This document shows positions 311 through 7,914 of a stretch of 38,770 nt of DNA, one piece after another. The notes beneath the pieces were generated by a model. The model worked only from the letters and a program-made list of their open reading frames with translations. It was not told where the DNA came from and did not search any database. Origin of the DNA: a bacterium (GTDB lineage Bacteria > Vulcanimicrobiota > Vulcanimicrobiia > Eremiobacterales > Eremiobacteraceae); NCBI GenBank assembly GCA_902812405.1, contig CADDZI010000022.1, positions 1-38,770 of the forward strand, written 5' to 3'. The position numbers were made by a program, and so were the translations under genes. Numbering within the stretch: position 1 is the first letter of the stretch; each line of letters starts with the position of its first letter.

Positions 311-317
311 AGCTTTG

Positions 318-3300
318 ATGCTCACTAAGAGCATGCTCCGCATCGCGCTCTTGGCTGTGCTCTTCGTGTTGATCCAGGCAACTCGGTCACTGGCTCTCAC
401 GACCGGCAACATCCAAGGCAAGGTGACGGATCAAAACGGAAATCCGCTCGCTGGGGTCAGGGTCGCCGTCACCTCACCCAGCCAGAGCCAGACCACGACG
501 ACCAACCGCGCCGGCTTCTACTCCATCCTCAACCTGTCGCCCGACACCTATAGCGTCACGGCGAGCAAGGATGGGTTCGACACGGCGACCGTGTACGGCA
601 TCACGGTTACGGCCGACCAGACCTCGCAGGTCAACATCGTGATGCGTCCGGCCATTAAGACCATCGGCCACATCACGACGACCGCCACGGCAACCATCGT
701 CAGCAGGACGGTAACGGGCGATCTCTACGCCGTCAATGCGCAGGCCATCGGCAAGTACCAGGGTGCGGCGGGCGGCTCGGAGACGCTGTACAGCCAAAAT
801 AGCGTCGTCGGGTCTCTGCCGGGAGTGGTTCGCTTGGCCGGAACCGGCGGCGGCTACTTCGGCCAAGGTTCGCTCTCCATGCGCGGCGGCCAGCAGGATC
901 AAATCGGCTACGAGTTCGACGGCATCGAACTGAACCGCGGCTTTGACTTCTACAACGCAACCTCGTTCGTGACCAACGGGTTGGGCAGCCTGGAGGTGTA
1001 CACGGGCGGCGCCCCGGCTTCCGCCGGCCGCGCCATGTCGGGATACATCAACGCGATACCGCAGCGCGGCCACTATCCGGGCGGCGCCGACTTCACAGGC
1101 GTCCTTGGTGCGCCGGACTTCAACCACACGGCTCAGGCTGACGTGTACGGCGGGACGCCGGACAACCGGTTCACGTACTACATCTCGACGCTGGCCATCA
1201 ACGCAGCCTACGACTTCGGTCAGCGCGGAAACTTGGACAACACGACGCTCGTGATCCCGGCCGGTGATCCGAACTGCGGGGCCGTGGCGGCGATCTATGC
1301 CGGTAATGGTTTGTCGACGGCCTTCCCGTGCACGCCATCGGGCCGTTTGGCAAGCACGCAGGCGGTCAACCTTCCCGTGTCCATCGGCTCGTACTTTTCC
1401 AATCCTTACGCCACCATCCGGGATACGGTGGCAAACTTGCACTGGAGCCTTTCACATAACGGTCTCAACGACGACATTCAGGCGCTGTATCTGACCGGTT
1501 TGACGGAGTCGCCGAACTTCTACGCCGGCCAAGGGGTCGACCCCAACGCGTCGGGGGCTCCGAATTTCGGGGTCAACGGCGGACCATTCACGATCGACTG
1601 GCCGGTAGGAACGCTGTACCAAGGGCAGCTCGGTGCCCCGTACGACCCCACCAAGAACCTGTTGCTTACCTGGCCTTCCTCGGGCGGAAGCGACCAGGGT
1701 CCGGTGCCGCCCAATTATCTCGACGGGTTTACGACCAAATACAGCATCGAAAAGGTCGGCTACACGCGGGCCATGACCGAAAATTCGTTCCTCAACATCT
1801 ACGGATACATGCTGTATTCGGACTGGCTCATCGACTCCGCCACCAACTCAAACAACAACGGCATCTTCTATCAGCTGCACGACAACGCGACCGGGGTTAC
1901 GCTGAACTACCAAAACCAGCTCAACGATCACAACCTGCTCAAGTTCACGGCAGATTACATCCGCGACGTCACTCTGCGCTACAACTACGCCAACTATATC
2001 ACGCAACAGCGCTATCATGGCGCCCTCACCGAGCCCGGCGGCAGAGTAGTCTGCGGAGCGCCCGGGGCGTTGGCCACGTTCGGTCCCTTTGATCCCGGCT
2101 GCACGGGTGCAATTCCGGAAGAAGTCGTGCTGCAGATCAAGGGCCCGTATGCGTACTGGAACAACGTCAACCCGCTCAACTACGACGGGGTGATCTCCGA
2201 TCAATTCAGACCGAGCGACAAGTGGCTCTTCGACATCGGTGCGCGCTACGACATCTTCGGCTTCCAGTTGATGCCGCTCACCATCAACGGCCCGAACGGC
2301 ATCGCAGAGCAGTCGCAGAACCAGTTCGGGATATGCCTGTTCGGCTACAAGTACGCCCCCAGCGAGCCTTGCAACGGCTACCTGACGAAACTTGCGACCG
2401 CCAACGGCCAGCCCGGGTTCTTGCCCGGAGCCGCCCCTTGGCAGGACGTGTCGGGAACGCTCCAATATCGCCAGTGGAGCCCGAGACTAGGCATCACCTA
2501 CAGCGCCGGGCCCGGCGACGTGTTCCGGTTCTCTGCCGGGCGGTACGTTCAACCGCCCAATGGAGCGTTTGAGGAGTACCGCGCCGCCCCGTATTGGGGA
2601 GTCGGCGACACGGTATCGATCCTCAACCGCTTCTATGCGCCGGCCACGCTGCACTTCACGGCAGTGCACAACATCCTGCCGGAGGACAGCACCAACTACG
2701 ACCTGTCCTGGGAGCACAACTTCGGCGGCGACGTGTCCGCCAAGATCACGCCGTATTACCGTATCACGCGTAATCAGGTCGTGACCATCCCCGTCGACCC
2801 GTCGAACCCAACGTTCGTCACGGGTTCGAACGTCGGTGCCGAGCGGGTGAAGGGTGTGGAGTTCTACGCGAGCAAGCCGGTGCAAGGCGAAAACGGCCTG
2901 GGAGGAACCATCTCCGCCACCTACACCGATGCCAAGTTACGCTTCAACCGCAATGCCTACGGCGTGTCGTTCATCGACGTGGTCAACCAGCAAATCGCCG
3001 CCTACAACGCGGCGCACGGAACAAACTACCCGATGCAAGATGTCAACGGGTATTACTCGCCGTCGTACAGCATGGCGCCGACCGACTTCAGCCCGTCCTA
3101 CGACGTGAAATGGGTCATCGGCCTCAACCTCGACTGGCGGTTTGCCGGGTTCGACCTTACGCCTACGTTCAACTATCAATCCGGCAGTCCGTACGGCGAA
3201 CCGCTGCTTTTCCCCGATCCATCCGGTCTGGTGGCATTCGGGCCTGATCCATACACGGGCCAGTTCGACCAGATCGGCTCGCTCAAGGGACCGTCGTCAT

Positions 3301-3584
3301 GGACCATGAACCTCGGGCTGTCTCACAACATCGGTCACAACGTCATGGGCTCGATCCTGTGGACGAACGTGTTCACCGCCGTCCACAACCAGGGCTATCC
3401 ATGGGAGTATAACCCCCGGTACCAGGTCGTGAGCTACAGCGACAACATCTTCTACCAGGTTGAGCCGCTCGGCCTGGATACGGGCAATGCAACCTCGTAC
3501 AACGGGGTGAATTACTTCCCGTATGCTCCGTCGGGTCTTCAGCCGTACAAATCCATTATCTTCAGTCTCTCACTCAAAACCTAA
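318..3584 (+). CDS. TonB-dependent receptor with N-terminal carboxypeptidase-regulatory-like domain
   Basis: A 1088-residue outer-membrane protein. Residues 1-27 form a signal peptide (basic start, hydrophobic core, LAL). Residues about 30-110 form a CarboxypepD_reg-like beta-sandwich (GKVTDQNGNPLAGVRVAV, then GFYSILNLSPDTYSV). A TonB plug follows at about 140-250 (SLPGVV, SMRGGQQDQIGYEFDGIELN, GGAPASAGRAMSGYIN), and the rest is a beta-barrel rich in alternating aromatic and polar residues. Such receptors import large or scarce ligands using ExbB-ExbD-TonB energy; the substrate cannot be read from the sequence. No exbBD or tonB gene is nearby and the gene appears monocistronic, followed by a hairpin. 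The CarboxypepD-plug-barrel order matches the Oar/SusC-like side of the family. The call is firm at family level and open on ligand. Confidence 0.93.
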   Translation: MLTKSMLRIALLAVLFVLIQATRSLALTTGNIQGKVTDQNGNPLAGVRVAVTSPSQSQTTTTNRAGFYSILNLSPDTYSVTASKDGFDTATVYGITVTADQTSQVNIVMRPAIKTIGHITTTATATIVSRTVTGDLYAVNAQAIGKYQGAAGGSETLYSQNSVVGSLPGVVRLAGTGGGYFGQGSLSMRGGQQDQIGYEFDGIELNRGFDFYNATSFVTNGLGSLEVYTGGAPASAGRAMSGYINAIPQRGHYPGGADFTGVLGAPDFNHTAQADVYGGTPDNRFTYYISTLAINAAYDFGQRGNLDNTTLVIPAGDPNCGAVAAIYAGNGLSTAFPCTPSGRLASTQAVNLPVSIGSYFSNPYATIRDTVANLHWSLSHNGLNDDIQALYLTGLTESPNFYAGQGVDPNASGAPNFGVNGGPFTIDWPVGTLYQGQLGAPYDPTKNLLLTWPSSGGSDQGPVPPNYLDGFTTKYSIEKVGYTRAMTENSFLNIYGYMLYSDWLIDSATNSNNNGIFYQLHDNATGVTLNYQNQLNDHNLLKFTADYIRDVTLRYNYANYITQQRYHGALTEPGGRVVCGAPGALATFGPFDPGCTGAIPEEVVLQIKGPYAYWNNVNPLNYDGVISDQFRPSDKWLFDIGARYDIFGFQLMPLTINGPNGIAEQSQNQFGICLFGYKYAPSEPCNGYLTKLATANGQPGFLPGAAPWQDVSGTLQYRQWSPRLGITYSAGPGDVFRFSAGRYVQPPNGAFEEYRAAPYWGVGDTVSILNRFYAPATLHFTAVHNILPEDSTNYDLSWEHNFGGDVSAKITPYYRITRNQVVTIPVDPSNPTFVTGSNVGAERVKGVEFYASKPVQGENGLGGTISATYTDAKLRFNRNAYGVSFIDVVNQQIAAYNAAHGTNYPMQDVNGYYSPSYSMAPTDFSPSYDVKWVIGLNLDWRFAGFDLTPTFNYQSGSPYGEPLLFPDPSGLVAFGPDPYTGQFDQIGSLKGPSSWTMNLGLSHNIGHNVMGSILWTNVFTAVHNQGYPWEYNPRYQVVSYSDNIFYQVEPLGLDTGNATSYNGVNYFPYAPSGLQPYKSIIFSLSLKT

Positions 3585-4975: not shown

Positions 4976-4989
4976 TTAGGCATGCCTAA
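4976..4989 (+). promoter_or_regulatory. Perfect 14-bp palindromic operator, DtxR/MntR-like
   Basis: TTAGGCATGCCTAA is a perfect palindrome placed directly after the -10 element and across the predicted start site, the classic position for a repressor. TTAGG and CCTAA half-sites are those of DtxR/IdeR/MntR-family metalloregulators, which respond to iron or manganese. A degenerate second copy (TTGGCATACCTA) lies at about 5000-5011, just inside the coding region. Regulator identity is inference; no DtxR-family gene is in the window. Confidence 0.5.
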
Positions 4990-4995
4990 TTATTC

Positions 4996-6126
4996 ATGGT
5001 TGGCATACCTATACGAAGCCTGGGTCTTATACTAGCTACCATCACGCTTGCCACCTGTGTGGTCCGGGTGCCCGCACCCGCTATTCCAATCTTCGCCCAT
5101 CAGTATGGGGTCACGTGTGAAAAGTGCCACTCGGTCATCCCGCATTTGAATGCGTTTGGGGCCGCCTTCGTGGCAAACGGCTATCGAATTCCAGGTGTAC
5201 AACCGGCGTCCGCCATCCCCGTGGCAATGAAAGTCAATCTCGCCGACTCAAGCCAAAATCAAGGCGGCGGCCAGGGAGGCGCGGGCCTCCCCAAAGCAAT
5301 CGTGGACGAGGTTGAAGTCTTCACGGCCGGGGCAATCGGCAGCCGCGCCAGTTATCTCGTCGAACAGTACGCGGTCGACGGCGGGATGCCGGGATTGCTG
5401 CGCGATGTGTGGATTACGGATCGCATCAATCCATGGGATGCACGGATCCCGATCTACGTCCAAGCTGGGTCTTTTACGCTTCCCCTCCCCGTCGATCCGG
5501 AGACGTTTCGCGACACCTATCAGGGGTACGCGGTCTACGAGCAAACCGTGGGTGCCAATCCCTTCAATTTCTTCGACCCAAAGATCGGGGTTCGGGTCAG
5601 CGTTGGAGATATGCTGCAGGGGCCCAGCCTGCAACTCTTCGCAGGGCCCGGGCACGACCGGCAAAGCGGACTCTCGAGCCTGGGTACGGACACCATGGGC
5701 TATGCGCAGGAGAGTCTGGGACCTTTCACCGTCAGCGCCTATCGGTATCAAGGCCAGCGTCCGGTGACCACATTCTTCAACGATCGGTTTGAGCGCAGCG
5801 GCTACAGCCTGGTCTATAACCAGTGGGCAAGGTTTTCGCTCGAGACCCTCCTCCAGACGGGCTGGGACTCCTGGTGTGGCCTTGATGTGGGCGGTTGCTC
5901 GTCCAGCGGAGGTTTTGCGCAGCTGCGGTACATGCTCAACCGCAGGCTCTTCGTCGGAGGACGCTACGAAGGGACGGCTGATTCAACCGGGACGTTCAGC
6001 CGCGACGTGGTTGTCCTGGCCGGCTACGGGCTGAGTGAAAACAGCCGCCTGACGGCCGAGGACGTCATTCACCACACGCCGGCGACGATGCATACACTCA
6101 ACCTGCAATGCACGGTCTCCTACTAA
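4996..6126 (+). CDS. Cyc2-like monoheme cytochrome c fused to an outer-membrane porin
   Basis: A 376-residue protein. Residues 1-29 are a signal peptide. Right after it comes one c-type heme site, CEKCH at residues 41-45, in the context IPIFAHQYGVTCEKCH followed by PHLNAFGAAFVANGY. The pattern A..YG..C..CH....P.LNAFG.AF...GY is the signature of the cytochrome domain of Cyc2-type fused cytochrome-porins. About 300 residues of amphipathic beta-strand sequence follow, and the protein ends in a terminal tyrosine, as outer-membrane barrels do. In iron oxidisers, Cyc2 takes electrons from extracellular Fe(II) and passes them across the outer membrane; many less studied relatives exist in other phyla, so the donor here is unknown. 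It shares a TAATG overlap with yceI and has a likely metal-responsive operator upstream. The fusion architecture is well supported; a role in iron oxidation is only possible. Confidence 0.75.
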   Translation: MVGIPIRSLGLILATITLATCVVRVPAPAIPIFAHQYGVTCEKCHSVIPHLNAFGAAFVANGYRIPGVQPASAIPVAMKVNLADSSQNQGGGQGGAGLPKAIVDEVEVFTAGAIGSRASYLVEQYAVDGGMPGLLRDVWITDRINPWDARIPIYVQAGSFTLPLPVDPETFRDTYQGYAVYEQTVGANPFNFFDPKIGVRVSVGDMLQGPSLQLFAGPGHDRQSGLSSLGTDTMGYAQESLGPFTVSAYRYQGQRPVTTFFNDRFERSGYSLVYNQWARFSLETLLQTGWDSWCGLDVGGCSSSGGFAQLRYMLNRRLFVGGRYEGTADSTGTFSRDVVVLAGYGLSENSRLTAEDVIHHTPATMHTLNLQCTVSY

Positions 6127-6692
6127 TGTCGAGTCGGCATCTCATCGCTGTCGGCCTCACGTGGCTGGCGGTGGCCGCCGGCGCAGCCAGACTGGACGCC
6201 GCAACAACGGAACGGGCGATCGACGTCGCCGCCTCCAGCGCCCGGTTCAGCGTCCAGCATGTCTTCGTGCAACGGGTCACGGGCAGCGTGCCCATTCTGA
6301 GCGGCTCGGTGACGCTTAACTCGGGCTCGCTCGTGCCGCTTGCCGCATCCGCCGTCTTGGATGCCACCCGCATCGACACGGGTGAAGCGGACCAAACTGC
6401 AGCCCTGCGTGGTCCGGACTTCTTCGATACGCAGAGGTTCCCGACGTGGACGTTTCACAGCACGAAGGTCGAACCGGAAACGCCCTCCACCTTCTCGATG
6501 GACGGCATGTTGACAATACACGGCGTCACGCAGCCGGAACACCTCGAGGTGACCATTCGGGGTAACGGCAACCGGCCCGAGTACGTCGCCACGGCCAAAA
6601 TCGATCGCCACGCGTTTGGAATGAAGACCGTGCCGCTGGACCCGGCCATCGGCACCATCGTCGACGTCACTCTCGACGTCATTCTGCGGTGA
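6126..6692 (+). CDS. YceI family periplasmic protein
   Basis: A 188-residue protein if started at ATG 6126, which overlaps the TAA of the preceding gene (TAATG); an in-frame ATG at 6108 would add six residues. Residues 1-30 form a signal peptide (LTWLAVAAGAARLDA). The rest is the YceI lipocalin-like barrel: IDVAASSARFSVQHVFVQRVTG, an LDATRIDTGEADQTAALRGPDFFD segment, FPTWTF, the M.G.LTIHGVT.P strand pair and a final AFGMKTVPLDPAIGTIVDVTLDV. YceI proteins bind isoprenoid or other hydrophobic chains in the periplasm and are often encoded beside membrane cytochromes. Coupling to the cytochrome-porin suggests a role in handling a quinone or lipid cofactor for it, though that is inference. Confidence 0.9.
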   Translation: MSSRHLIAVGLTWLAVAAGAARLDAATTERAIDVAASSARFSVQHVFVQRVTGSVPILSGSVTLNSGSLVPLAASAVLDATRIDTGEADQTAALRGPDFFDTQRFPTWTFHSTKVEPETPSTFSMDGMLTIHGVTQPEHLEVTIRGNGNRPEYVATAKIDRHAFGMKTVPLDPAIGTIVDVTLDVILR

Positions 6693-6776: not shown

Positions 6777-7914
6777 GTGTCGAAACACGTCGCGATGAAC
6801 GAGCAACTGCGCACCGACCTCGCCAAGATCGAAGACCGCCTGCAGACCCTGCGGGTGCGTCTTTGACCACGACGCCAAACAGCGCGAAATCTCCGAGCTC
6901 GAAAAACGCACCCACGCTCCGGACTTTTGGGATGATAGCGCCGCCGCTCAGGTGGCGATGAAGGCTTTAGCCGCTCTCCAGAACGAGACGGCGCCTTTGC
7001 AGCGCCTGCTGGAGCGGGCCGCCGAGCTGCGCGAGTTCGTCGAGCTCGGCGAGAGCGATGGCTCCCTTGTGGATGAAGTCGCGCGAGAAGTCGAAAGTTT
7101 GCGCGCCTCCCTGGACGAGCTCGAAACGAGCGCGGTCTTTGACGGCGAGTACGACCACCACGATGCCATTCTGACCATTCACGCCGGGGCGGGCGGCACG
7201 GAAGCCATGGACTGGGCGGCCATGCTGTTGCGCATGTACGTGCGCTGGGCCGAACGCAAAGGCTATCGCACCCAGATCCTGGATGTCTTGGAAGGCGACG
7301 AAGCCGGCGTGAAGAGCGCTGAAGTGCTGGTGCAAGGCCGCTACGCCTACGGTTACTTGGAGAGCGAACGGGGTGTGCACCGCCTCGTGCGCATCTCCCC
7401 CTTCGACGCCGCCAAGCGCCGGCACACGTCGTTCGCCTCGGTGGACGTCACGCCGGACGTCGAAGAAGACGAGACGATCGACATCAAACCGGACGACATC
7501 GAGATCGAAACCTTCAAGAGCGGCGGCGCCGGCGGACAGTACGTCAACAAGACCGAGAGTGCGGTGCGCATCATTCACAAAGCCACGGGCATCATCGTGG
7601 CGTGCCAGAACGAGCGCTCGCAACTCGCCAACCGCAACCGGGCCATGAAGATGCTGGCGGCCAAGCTGCTGCAGCGCGAGCGCGACGAACGGGCGCGCAA
7701 GCTCGCCGTCCTGAGCGGTCAGAAGAGCGCCATCGAGTGGGGCAGTCAGATCCGCTCGTACACTTTGCAGCCCTATACGATGGTCAACGATCACCGCACC
7801 GAGGTCAAGGTGACCAATGCTCAAGCAGTCTTGGACGGCGACCTCGACCGTTTCATGCTGGCCTATCTGCAGCAACGCCGCCGCGAACGGACCCCTGCCG
7901 CCCGTTCGGGGTAG
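6777..7914 (+). CDS. prfB: Peptide chain release factor 2, expressed by programmed +1 frameshift
   Basis: The gene is join(6777..6863, 6865..7914), 378 residues. The first frame runs 29 codons from GTG 6777 to CTT TGA at 6861-6866; skipping T 6864 continues as GAC CAC into the long frame. RF2 recognises UGA and UAA and releases the finished peptide. Visible signatures are the acidic N-terminal helix ([11 protein letters not shown]), the SPF recognition tripeptide in [12 protein letters not shown] that is specific to RF2 rather than RF1 (PAT), and the catalytic GGQ loop in [19 protein letters not shown]. The in-frame UGA lets RF2 control its own level: when RF2 is scarce the ribosome pauses and shifts. 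Without the shift the gene would appear to begin at an internal ATG near 6952 and lose its N-terminus. A secA gene lies upstream, as in many bacteria, but 6.6 kb away. Confidence 0.96.
6861..6867 (+). promoter_or_regulatory. prfB: Programmed +1 frameshift site in prfB (CTTTGAC)
   Basis: CTT TGA C is the canonical RF2 slippery site: tRNA-Leu slips from CUU to UUU and reading resumes at GAC. GCGGGTGCG just before it offers a weak internal Shine-Dalgarno-like GGGTG, close to the position of the stimulator in E. coli. Confidence 0.93.

Follow-up and report, generated by a model that had tools for sequence, protein, structure and literature searches.

A Cyc2-like cytochrome-porin coupled to YceI in Eremiobacterota: a candidate outer-membrane redox gate under a proposed IdeR-type operator

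Gene organization of the locus

The window, i.e. the whole stretch of DNA that was analyzed (38,770 nucleotides), belongs to an Eremiobacterota MAG with a genome of 2.32 Mb, labeled G000 in the following. Its named relatives are Candidatus Eremiobacterota MAGs, several of which were sampled from palsa and bog, and the host can be described as a "soil-type" bacterium. The genomes used for comparison were MAGs as well, and all conclusions presented here are based on sequences.

The features of the locus are compiled in Table 1. The open reading frame at 4996-6126 of the forward strand has a hydrophobic signal at its N-terminus, contains AIPIFAHQYGVTCEKCHSVIPHLNAFGAAFVANGY and ends with a Tyr, which agrees with the signal peptide, single CEKCH site and terminal Tyr described for it in a first-pass annotation of this DNA. 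The signal peptides of the cytochrome-porin and of YceI were both judged by eye. Compared to a homolog of 70% identity, the cytochrome-porin gene showed a divergence of 0.21/0.17/0.53 at the three codon positions, and homologs were present in 61 of 61 genomes in the first search. Due to these two observations, the gene is regarded as real and its product as a selected protein.

Upstream of the porin and on the same strand, a TonB-dependent receptor with a carboxypeptidase-regulatory domain is encoded (window 315-3584), in front of which no copy of the operator described below was found, neither exact nor with one mismatch. Downstream of yceI follows prfB (window 6780-7914), whose first part and main reading frame lie in different frames around CTTTGAC (approximately 6862-6868), comparable to the programmed frameshift of release factor 2. 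A conserved operon extending further than YceI was considered and rejected, since the neighbors differ between genomes.

Table 1. Features of the cytochrome-porin/yceI locus, with positions given for the window
Feature	Position	Strand	Basis
Operator palindrome TTAGGCATGCCTAA (TTAGG-N4-CCTAA), proposed DtxR/IdeR-type binding site	4976..4989		Uniqueness, conservation
Cyc2-like cytochrome-porin, 376 aa	4996..6126	+	ORF, alignment, AlphaFold2, Foldseek, profile comparison
Signal peptide, about residues 1-29	4996..5082	+	By-eye call on the sequence
Degenerate second operator copy GTTGGCATACCTAT, 23 bp on	4999..5012		Three mismatches
AIPIFAHQY, corresponding to the Cyc2 signature AXPXFAR[Q/K][T/Y] with R replaced by H	5080..5106	+	
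CEKCH heme c site, residues 41-45	5116..5130	+	Both Cys and the His unchanged across 48 aligned homologs
PHL, corresponding to the PXL motif 3' of the heme site	5140..5148	+	
Predicted 16-strand beta-barrel	5221..6117	+	AlphaFold2 model; Foldseek matches among 16-strand porins, including Omp32
Conserved long loop connecting strands 5 and 6, at the position of the porin constriction loop L3	5476..5580	+	Model topology and conservation in the alignment
yceI, exported YceI lipocalin-fold protein, TAATG overlap	6126..6692	+	Pfam, nearest structure, conserved overlap

Heme domain and predicted barrel

In the alignment of 48 homologs, both Cys and the His of the CxxCH site were invariant, so that the retention of this site, on which the cytochrome assignment depended, is confirmed. 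A reading of the family as porins without heme was rejected for the same reason. The other invariant columns comprise a few Gly, Pro, Asp and Arg, while P24 and L26 of the PXL motif (SVIPHL in the window) are nearly invariant across the homologs. The only full locus without CxxCH in its reading frame was L029, where the gene is split over two reading frames, the upstream one of which carries the motif. A distal heme ligand was not evident, since no second His or Met was invariant among the 48 homologs, and the same holds true for the six Cyc2 references.

The AlphaFold2 model, calculated with the 48 homologs as input, showed a mean pLDDT of 85.7 and a pTM of 0.84. It comprises exactly 16 barrel strands, preceded by short helices around CxxCH that would form an N-terminal heme domain. 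The best matches of the model among PDB structures in Foldseek were 16-strand porins, led by Omp32 (1.3e-7) and followed by MOMP, OmpT, DcaP, PorB, OmpF and others. The predicted closed barrel with its N-terminal heme domain supports the fusion of cytochrome and porin that had been proposed from the primary sequence. The model of the C3 paralog of G000 was also 16-stranded, with low confidence in the heme region. Neither Pfam nor NCBIfam gave a significant match for the porin itself, a sequence search of the PDB resulted in chance matches only, and two members of the cytochrome-porin family matched Porin_O_P weakly. In one other genome, a homolog of the porin is extended by a Met-rich linker and two further CxxCH domains, resulting in a tri-heme fusion (L055:4152-6143; G004:C50).

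Relation to Cyc2

According to the published criteria, Cyc2 comprises a signal peptide, one CXXCH with AXPXFAR[Q/K][T/Y] upstream and PXL downstream, a minimum length of 365 aa and a porin of 16 strands; the protein oxidizes Fe(II) (PMC8406198). The porin of the window carries a single N-terminal CXXCH after the signal peptide, followed by PXL (SVIPHL), in a predicted 16-strand porin fusion of 376 aa. The strict signature was not found in it, as AIPIFAHQY contains His in place of Arg, while the sister homolog L046 (AIPVFARQY) satisfies it. Some homologs are shorter than 365 aa, as for example L027 with 356 aa from stop to stop.

Since the homologs obtained in a genome-scale scan were confined to MAGs of this phylum and to bacteria without a name, plasmid records served as the source of canonical Cyc2 references, namely those of Methylocystis, Caballeronia, Paraburkholderia, Ideonella, Acidithiobacillus/Acidiphilium and Polymorphobacter. 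A profile-profile comparison by hhalign with canonical Cyc2 of Pseudomonadota gave a probability of 98.4% and E=6e-15, confined mainly to the first ~90 columns (deep profile), and a Cyc2 profile search of G000 retrieved three genes, among which the porin of the window was the best at 4e-11. The assignment to the Cyc2 family in the first-pass annotation therefore holds for the homologous heme domain (E=6e-15), and it does not hold for strict membership, where His occupies the position of the signature Arg (PMC8406198). Judged from sequence and model, the porin resembles Cyc2 in the ancestry of its heme domain and in its predicted fold. Since one defining residue differs, the protein is called Cyc2-like and not Cyc2.

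The YceI partner

At 6124-6128, the sequence TAATG combines the stop codon TAA of the porin gene with the start codon ATG of yceI, an overlap also noticed in the first-pass annotation. The yceI product matched the Pfam family YceI (PF04264) with E=3.5e-33; the nearest solved structure was TT1927b (1wub, E=4e-16), and the YceI structure of E. coli matched as well. The porins linked to YceI form a monophyletic clade with an SH-aLRT of 100 in a tree that was calculated by a quick search without bootstrap and contains some long branches. Within this clade, yceI adjoins the porin gene in 26 of 28 rows; one of the two exceptions is cut by the contig end (L038), while the other truly lacks yceI (L028). 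Most of the pairs show a TGATG or TAATG overlap or a gap of a few bases. The pairing with YceI is thus real, clade-specific and translationally coupled.

YceI proteins bind isoprenoids including ubiquinone-8 (PMC9113575; PMC8981238), and most YceI structures contain Ubi-8 or other isoprenoids (PMC9113575). No cytochrome b561 gene was present next to yceI in the window, where the neighbors are the cytochrome-porin gene and prfB.

Proposed operator and regulon

The palindrome directly upstream of the porin gene, TTAGGCATGCCTAA at 4976-4989, is the only exact TTAGG-N4-CCTAA in G000. The pattern was first noticed in the window, and its conservation in other genomes constitutes the test. In the YceI clade, the operator was found upstream with at most two mismatches in 26 of 26 rows with enough sequence and with at most one mismatch in 24 of these 26; in the multicopper oxidase clade it was found with at most one mismatch in 5/5. 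It was absent upstream in the cupredoxin clade (0/13) and in the porins linked to COX (0/2). As a background, approximately 98% of random 200-bp segments of these loci show at least three mismatches to the operator. The homologs carry a second, weaker copy at +22 bp with a mean of 3.83 mismatches, compared to about 6.6-8.5 at other offsets, and the corresponding copy in the window, GTTGGCATACCTAT, shows three mismatches at +23 bp. In five homologs (L027, L030, L036, L096 and L100), the operator occupies the -35/-10 spacer of a promoter of the type TTGACA-N17/18. Since no clear sigma-70 promoter was found in the window, the assumption of a repressor position is based there on the closeness to the start codon and on these homologs.

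In 778 kb of loci, which had been selected for the cytochrome-porin family, 43 exact operator sites were found compared to none of a reversed control pattern, whereas in whole genomes the exact pattern was not more frequent than the reversed control. Consequently, the non-random feature of the operator is its placement and not its genome-wide frequency. Duplicate loci were removed by hand from L123-L152 and L161-L192, leaving 61 distinct exact sites from genomes of the class, the counts of which are not to be read as a census. Among these listed sites, 54 of 61 lie at or just before the start codon of six kinds of genes: multicopper oxidase/ZIP-like fusions (23), Nramp (13), cytochrome-porins (8), DtxR-type regulators (7), HiPIP (2) and a TonB receptor (1). 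The exact operator in front of dtxR was found in seven genomes of the same family among the sites listed. An assignment as a Crp/Fnr-type site, for which the 5-N4-5 spacing would fit, was dropped, since the site precedes a DtxR-type gene in 7/7 of the non-porin genome sites of the same family. In G000, dtxR carries an operator with one mismatch 61 bp upstream, the Nramp genes show no recognizable operator, and near-exact sites occur only at dtxR and at the porin operon.

The multicopper oxidase/ZIP-like protein under the porin-type operator is a fusion of 622 aa, in which a two-domain multicopper oxidase is joined to a ZIP-like membrane part (L160:515-2380 and 22 similar sites), and its ZIP match lies below the Pfam cut-off (E=2.4e-5). 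In L148 and L150, one operator near position 1500 is common to a divergent small membrane protein and a HiPIP that carries a Tat-like signal, and in L191 an exact operator separates a divergent pair of genes for uncharacterized lipoprotein-like secreted proteins (260-1993 and 2036-2689).

The DtxR protein of G000, encoded at L158:687-1439, carries Met10 and Cys102 (VEMYL, EACRLEH) at the positions where aligned manganese regulators carry Asp and Glu. Met/Cys versus Asp/Glu ligands separate iron from manganese sensors (PMC10317159). Manganese regulators are among the solved structures with the best scores; the Met and Cys ligand residues suggest an iron-type regulator. In IdeR-repressed genes, the box lies over the start site or the -10 region (PMC10317159). 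The canonical 19-bp IdeR box TTAGGTTAGSCTAACCTAA was not found at the site in the window, which consists of the 14-bp palindrome and its second copy. The IdeR-type operator, which was not part of the first-pass annotation, suggests that the unit belongs to an iron-regulated gene set with uptake functions.

Sister clades and paralogs

In sister clades, a multicopper oxidase gene follows the porin gene instead of yceI (L039, L040, L045, L111 and L112), and in L035 the order is porin, YceI and multicopper oxidase. A distant paralog clade (L058-L070) combines the porin with a plastocyanin-like lipoprotein, SCO1/SenC and a TPR protein, often together with a two-component pair. This set is reminiscent of a blue-copper iron oxidation chain. 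The third cytochrome-porin of G000 (G000:C4; L109:2774-6509) is located directly downstream of COX2-COX1 and adjoins a histidine kinase. G000 also encodes RuBisCO, three COX1 genes and one cytochrome c maturation gene.

A probable iron-regulated outer-membrane redox gate

Altogether, we consider it somewhat probable that the two-gene operon encodes a Cyc2-like redox gate of the outer membrane, which belongs to an iron-repressed regulon and has its role in the handling or uptake of iron rather than in bulk respiration on Fe(II). This preference originates from the operator that is common to the autoregulated IdeR-type gene, Nramp and multicopper oxidase genes. The gate would consist of a 16-strand porin, the periplasmic mouth of which is plugged by the c-type heme domain of ~45 residues. 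Via the heme, electrons would cross singly between the periplasm and a small extracellular reactant located in the pore. In the periplasm, YceI most likely has an isoprenoid quinone bound and would trade the electron with the envelope electron pool. With sufficient iron, the regulator would repress the operon; under iron scarcity the gate would be made, with electron exchange between its heme and the iron in the pore and a relay by YceI in the periplasm. That YceI carries the electron and that the unit acts as Fe(II) oxidase can only be inferred, and the first-pass annotation had likewise labeled role and direction of electron flow as inference. Since the partners other than YceI, namely multicopper oxidase, cupredoxin and heme-copper oxidase, all accept electrons on the way to O2, an inward flow from Fe(II) is slightly favored by analogy with these partner swaps.

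IdeR-family proteins are also able to activate, and a heme protein and a HiPIP would be costly under iron scarcity; both points count against the reading as iron repression and would allow for respiration. The length of the operator (14 bp instead of the canonical 19-bp IdeR box), the missing clear sigma-70 promoter in the window and the Nramp genes of G000 without a site likewise count against the proposed gate.

The same components could be arranged as a respiratory Fe(II) oxidase like Cyc2, with electrons from extracellular Fe(II) passing via the heme and YceI-quinone or soluble carriers to an oxidase for energy, while RuBisCO fixes carbon. The homology to Cyc2 (E=6e-15; profile 4e-11) would fit this, as would the RuBisCO, COX1 and cytochrome c maturation genes of G000, its other porin beside COX2-COX1, the electron acceptors accompanying the paralogs, and the presence of HiPIP, a partner of a canonical Cyc2, in the regulon of the porin. 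One Cyc2-like gene, recognized by BLAST in Eremiobacterota MAG 15, was proposed earlier as Fe(II) oxidase (PMC8357290). However, the porin shares its control with Nramp and with an IdeR-type regulator that is itself autoregulated, and the operators lie in repressor position, which predicts a shut-off just when Fe(II) is abundant; moreover, the strict Cyc2 motif is not matched and no cytochrome c gene was recognized beside the porin. A respiratory function is regarded as rather unlikely.

Reversing the electron flow would turn the unit into a reductive iron importer, in which electrons from quinol on YceI would reach the heme and, from there, Fe(III) inside the pore. The resulting Fe(II) would then move through the barrel toward Nramp or ZIP transporters. 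Such an importer would be in line with the operator common to the porin, Nramp and multicopper oxidase-ZIP genes and with its repressor-type placement. It is nevertheless unlikely, as the multicopper oxidase paired with the porin in sister clades takes up electrons and cannot supply them, and the literature searched contained no precedent for a ferric reductase in the Cyc2 family. Quite improbable is an antioxidant unit of the envelope, where YceI-quinone, as proposed for BcnA, would quench lipid peroxyl radicals and would be recycled by the outer-membrane heme in place of the cytochrome b561 LcoA. Such a function could draw on the precedent of a YceI lipocalin with a cytochrome in BcnA-LcoA and on the isoprenoids in most YceI structures (PMC9113575), and iron control would fit the links to oxidative stress; yet the porin is located in the outer membrane, far from the quinone pool, cytochrome b561 is not adjacent, and, judging by the operator, the unit would be expressed at low iron, a condition that minimizes Fenton damage.

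Returning to the redox gate, it can tentatively be proposed that cytochrome-porins of Eremiobacterota have a second role as redox-coupled iron gates of the outer membrane in uptake or homeostasis, within an IdeR-type regulon comprising Nramp and multicopper oxidase/ZIP and with YceI as a quinone-loaded partner. To our knowledge, cytochrome-porins are known only as respiratory Fe(II) oxidases. Cyc2-like genes are widely taken as evidence of Fe(II)-oxidizing metabolism, including in Eremiobacterota. If this phylum uses them under an iron-scarcity switch, finding the gene would by itself be no proof of iron oxidation, which would then be overestimated in iron-cycle surveys. Furthermore, YceI could be assigned to a specific position in an electron path of the outer membrane, and a little-cultured phylum would offer a compact regulon accessible to testing, with the porin, YceI, multicopper oxidase/ZIP, HiPIP and Nramp as its members.

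Comparison with known systems

With Cyc2 (PMC8406198), the porin of the window shares the single N-terminal CXXCH in a like context, the PXL after it, the predicted 16-strand barrel and the homologous heme domain. It differs by the His in place of the signature Arg, by a shorter barrel (mature part of ~350 aa compared to ~420-495 aa in the references used), by the YceI partner and by the IdeR-type operator, and beyond the first ~90 columns of the deep profile no significant sequence match to Cyc2 was found. The Cyc2-like protein of Eremiobacterota MAG 15 originates from the same phylum and is compared here by its published description; unlike for the porin of the window, the part of the account describing it mentions no YceI, paralog set or regulation (PMC8357290).

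The genetic coupling of a YceI gene to a cytochrome gene is also found in BcnA-LcoA (PMC9113575), where the cytochrome is a membrane b561, whereas a c-type porin of the outer membrane is predicted in the window. Cbp2D of Cellvibrio (PMC8981238) likewise joins a YceI-like domain with c-type heme domains, two in this case, for electron transfer; in contrast to the system of the window, it contains a carbohydrate-binding module, is linked to polysaccharide oxidation and comprises no porin. The regulons of IdeR and DtxR (PMC10317159; PMC1382209) show the same TTAGG/CCTAA repeats, autoregulation, metal transporters and Met and Cys ligands. Compared to their 19-bp box, the putative operator described here is a palindrome of 14 bp, which often occurs as two copies at a distance of 22 bp, and its targets include heme porins, HiPIP and multicopper oxidase-ZIP fusions.
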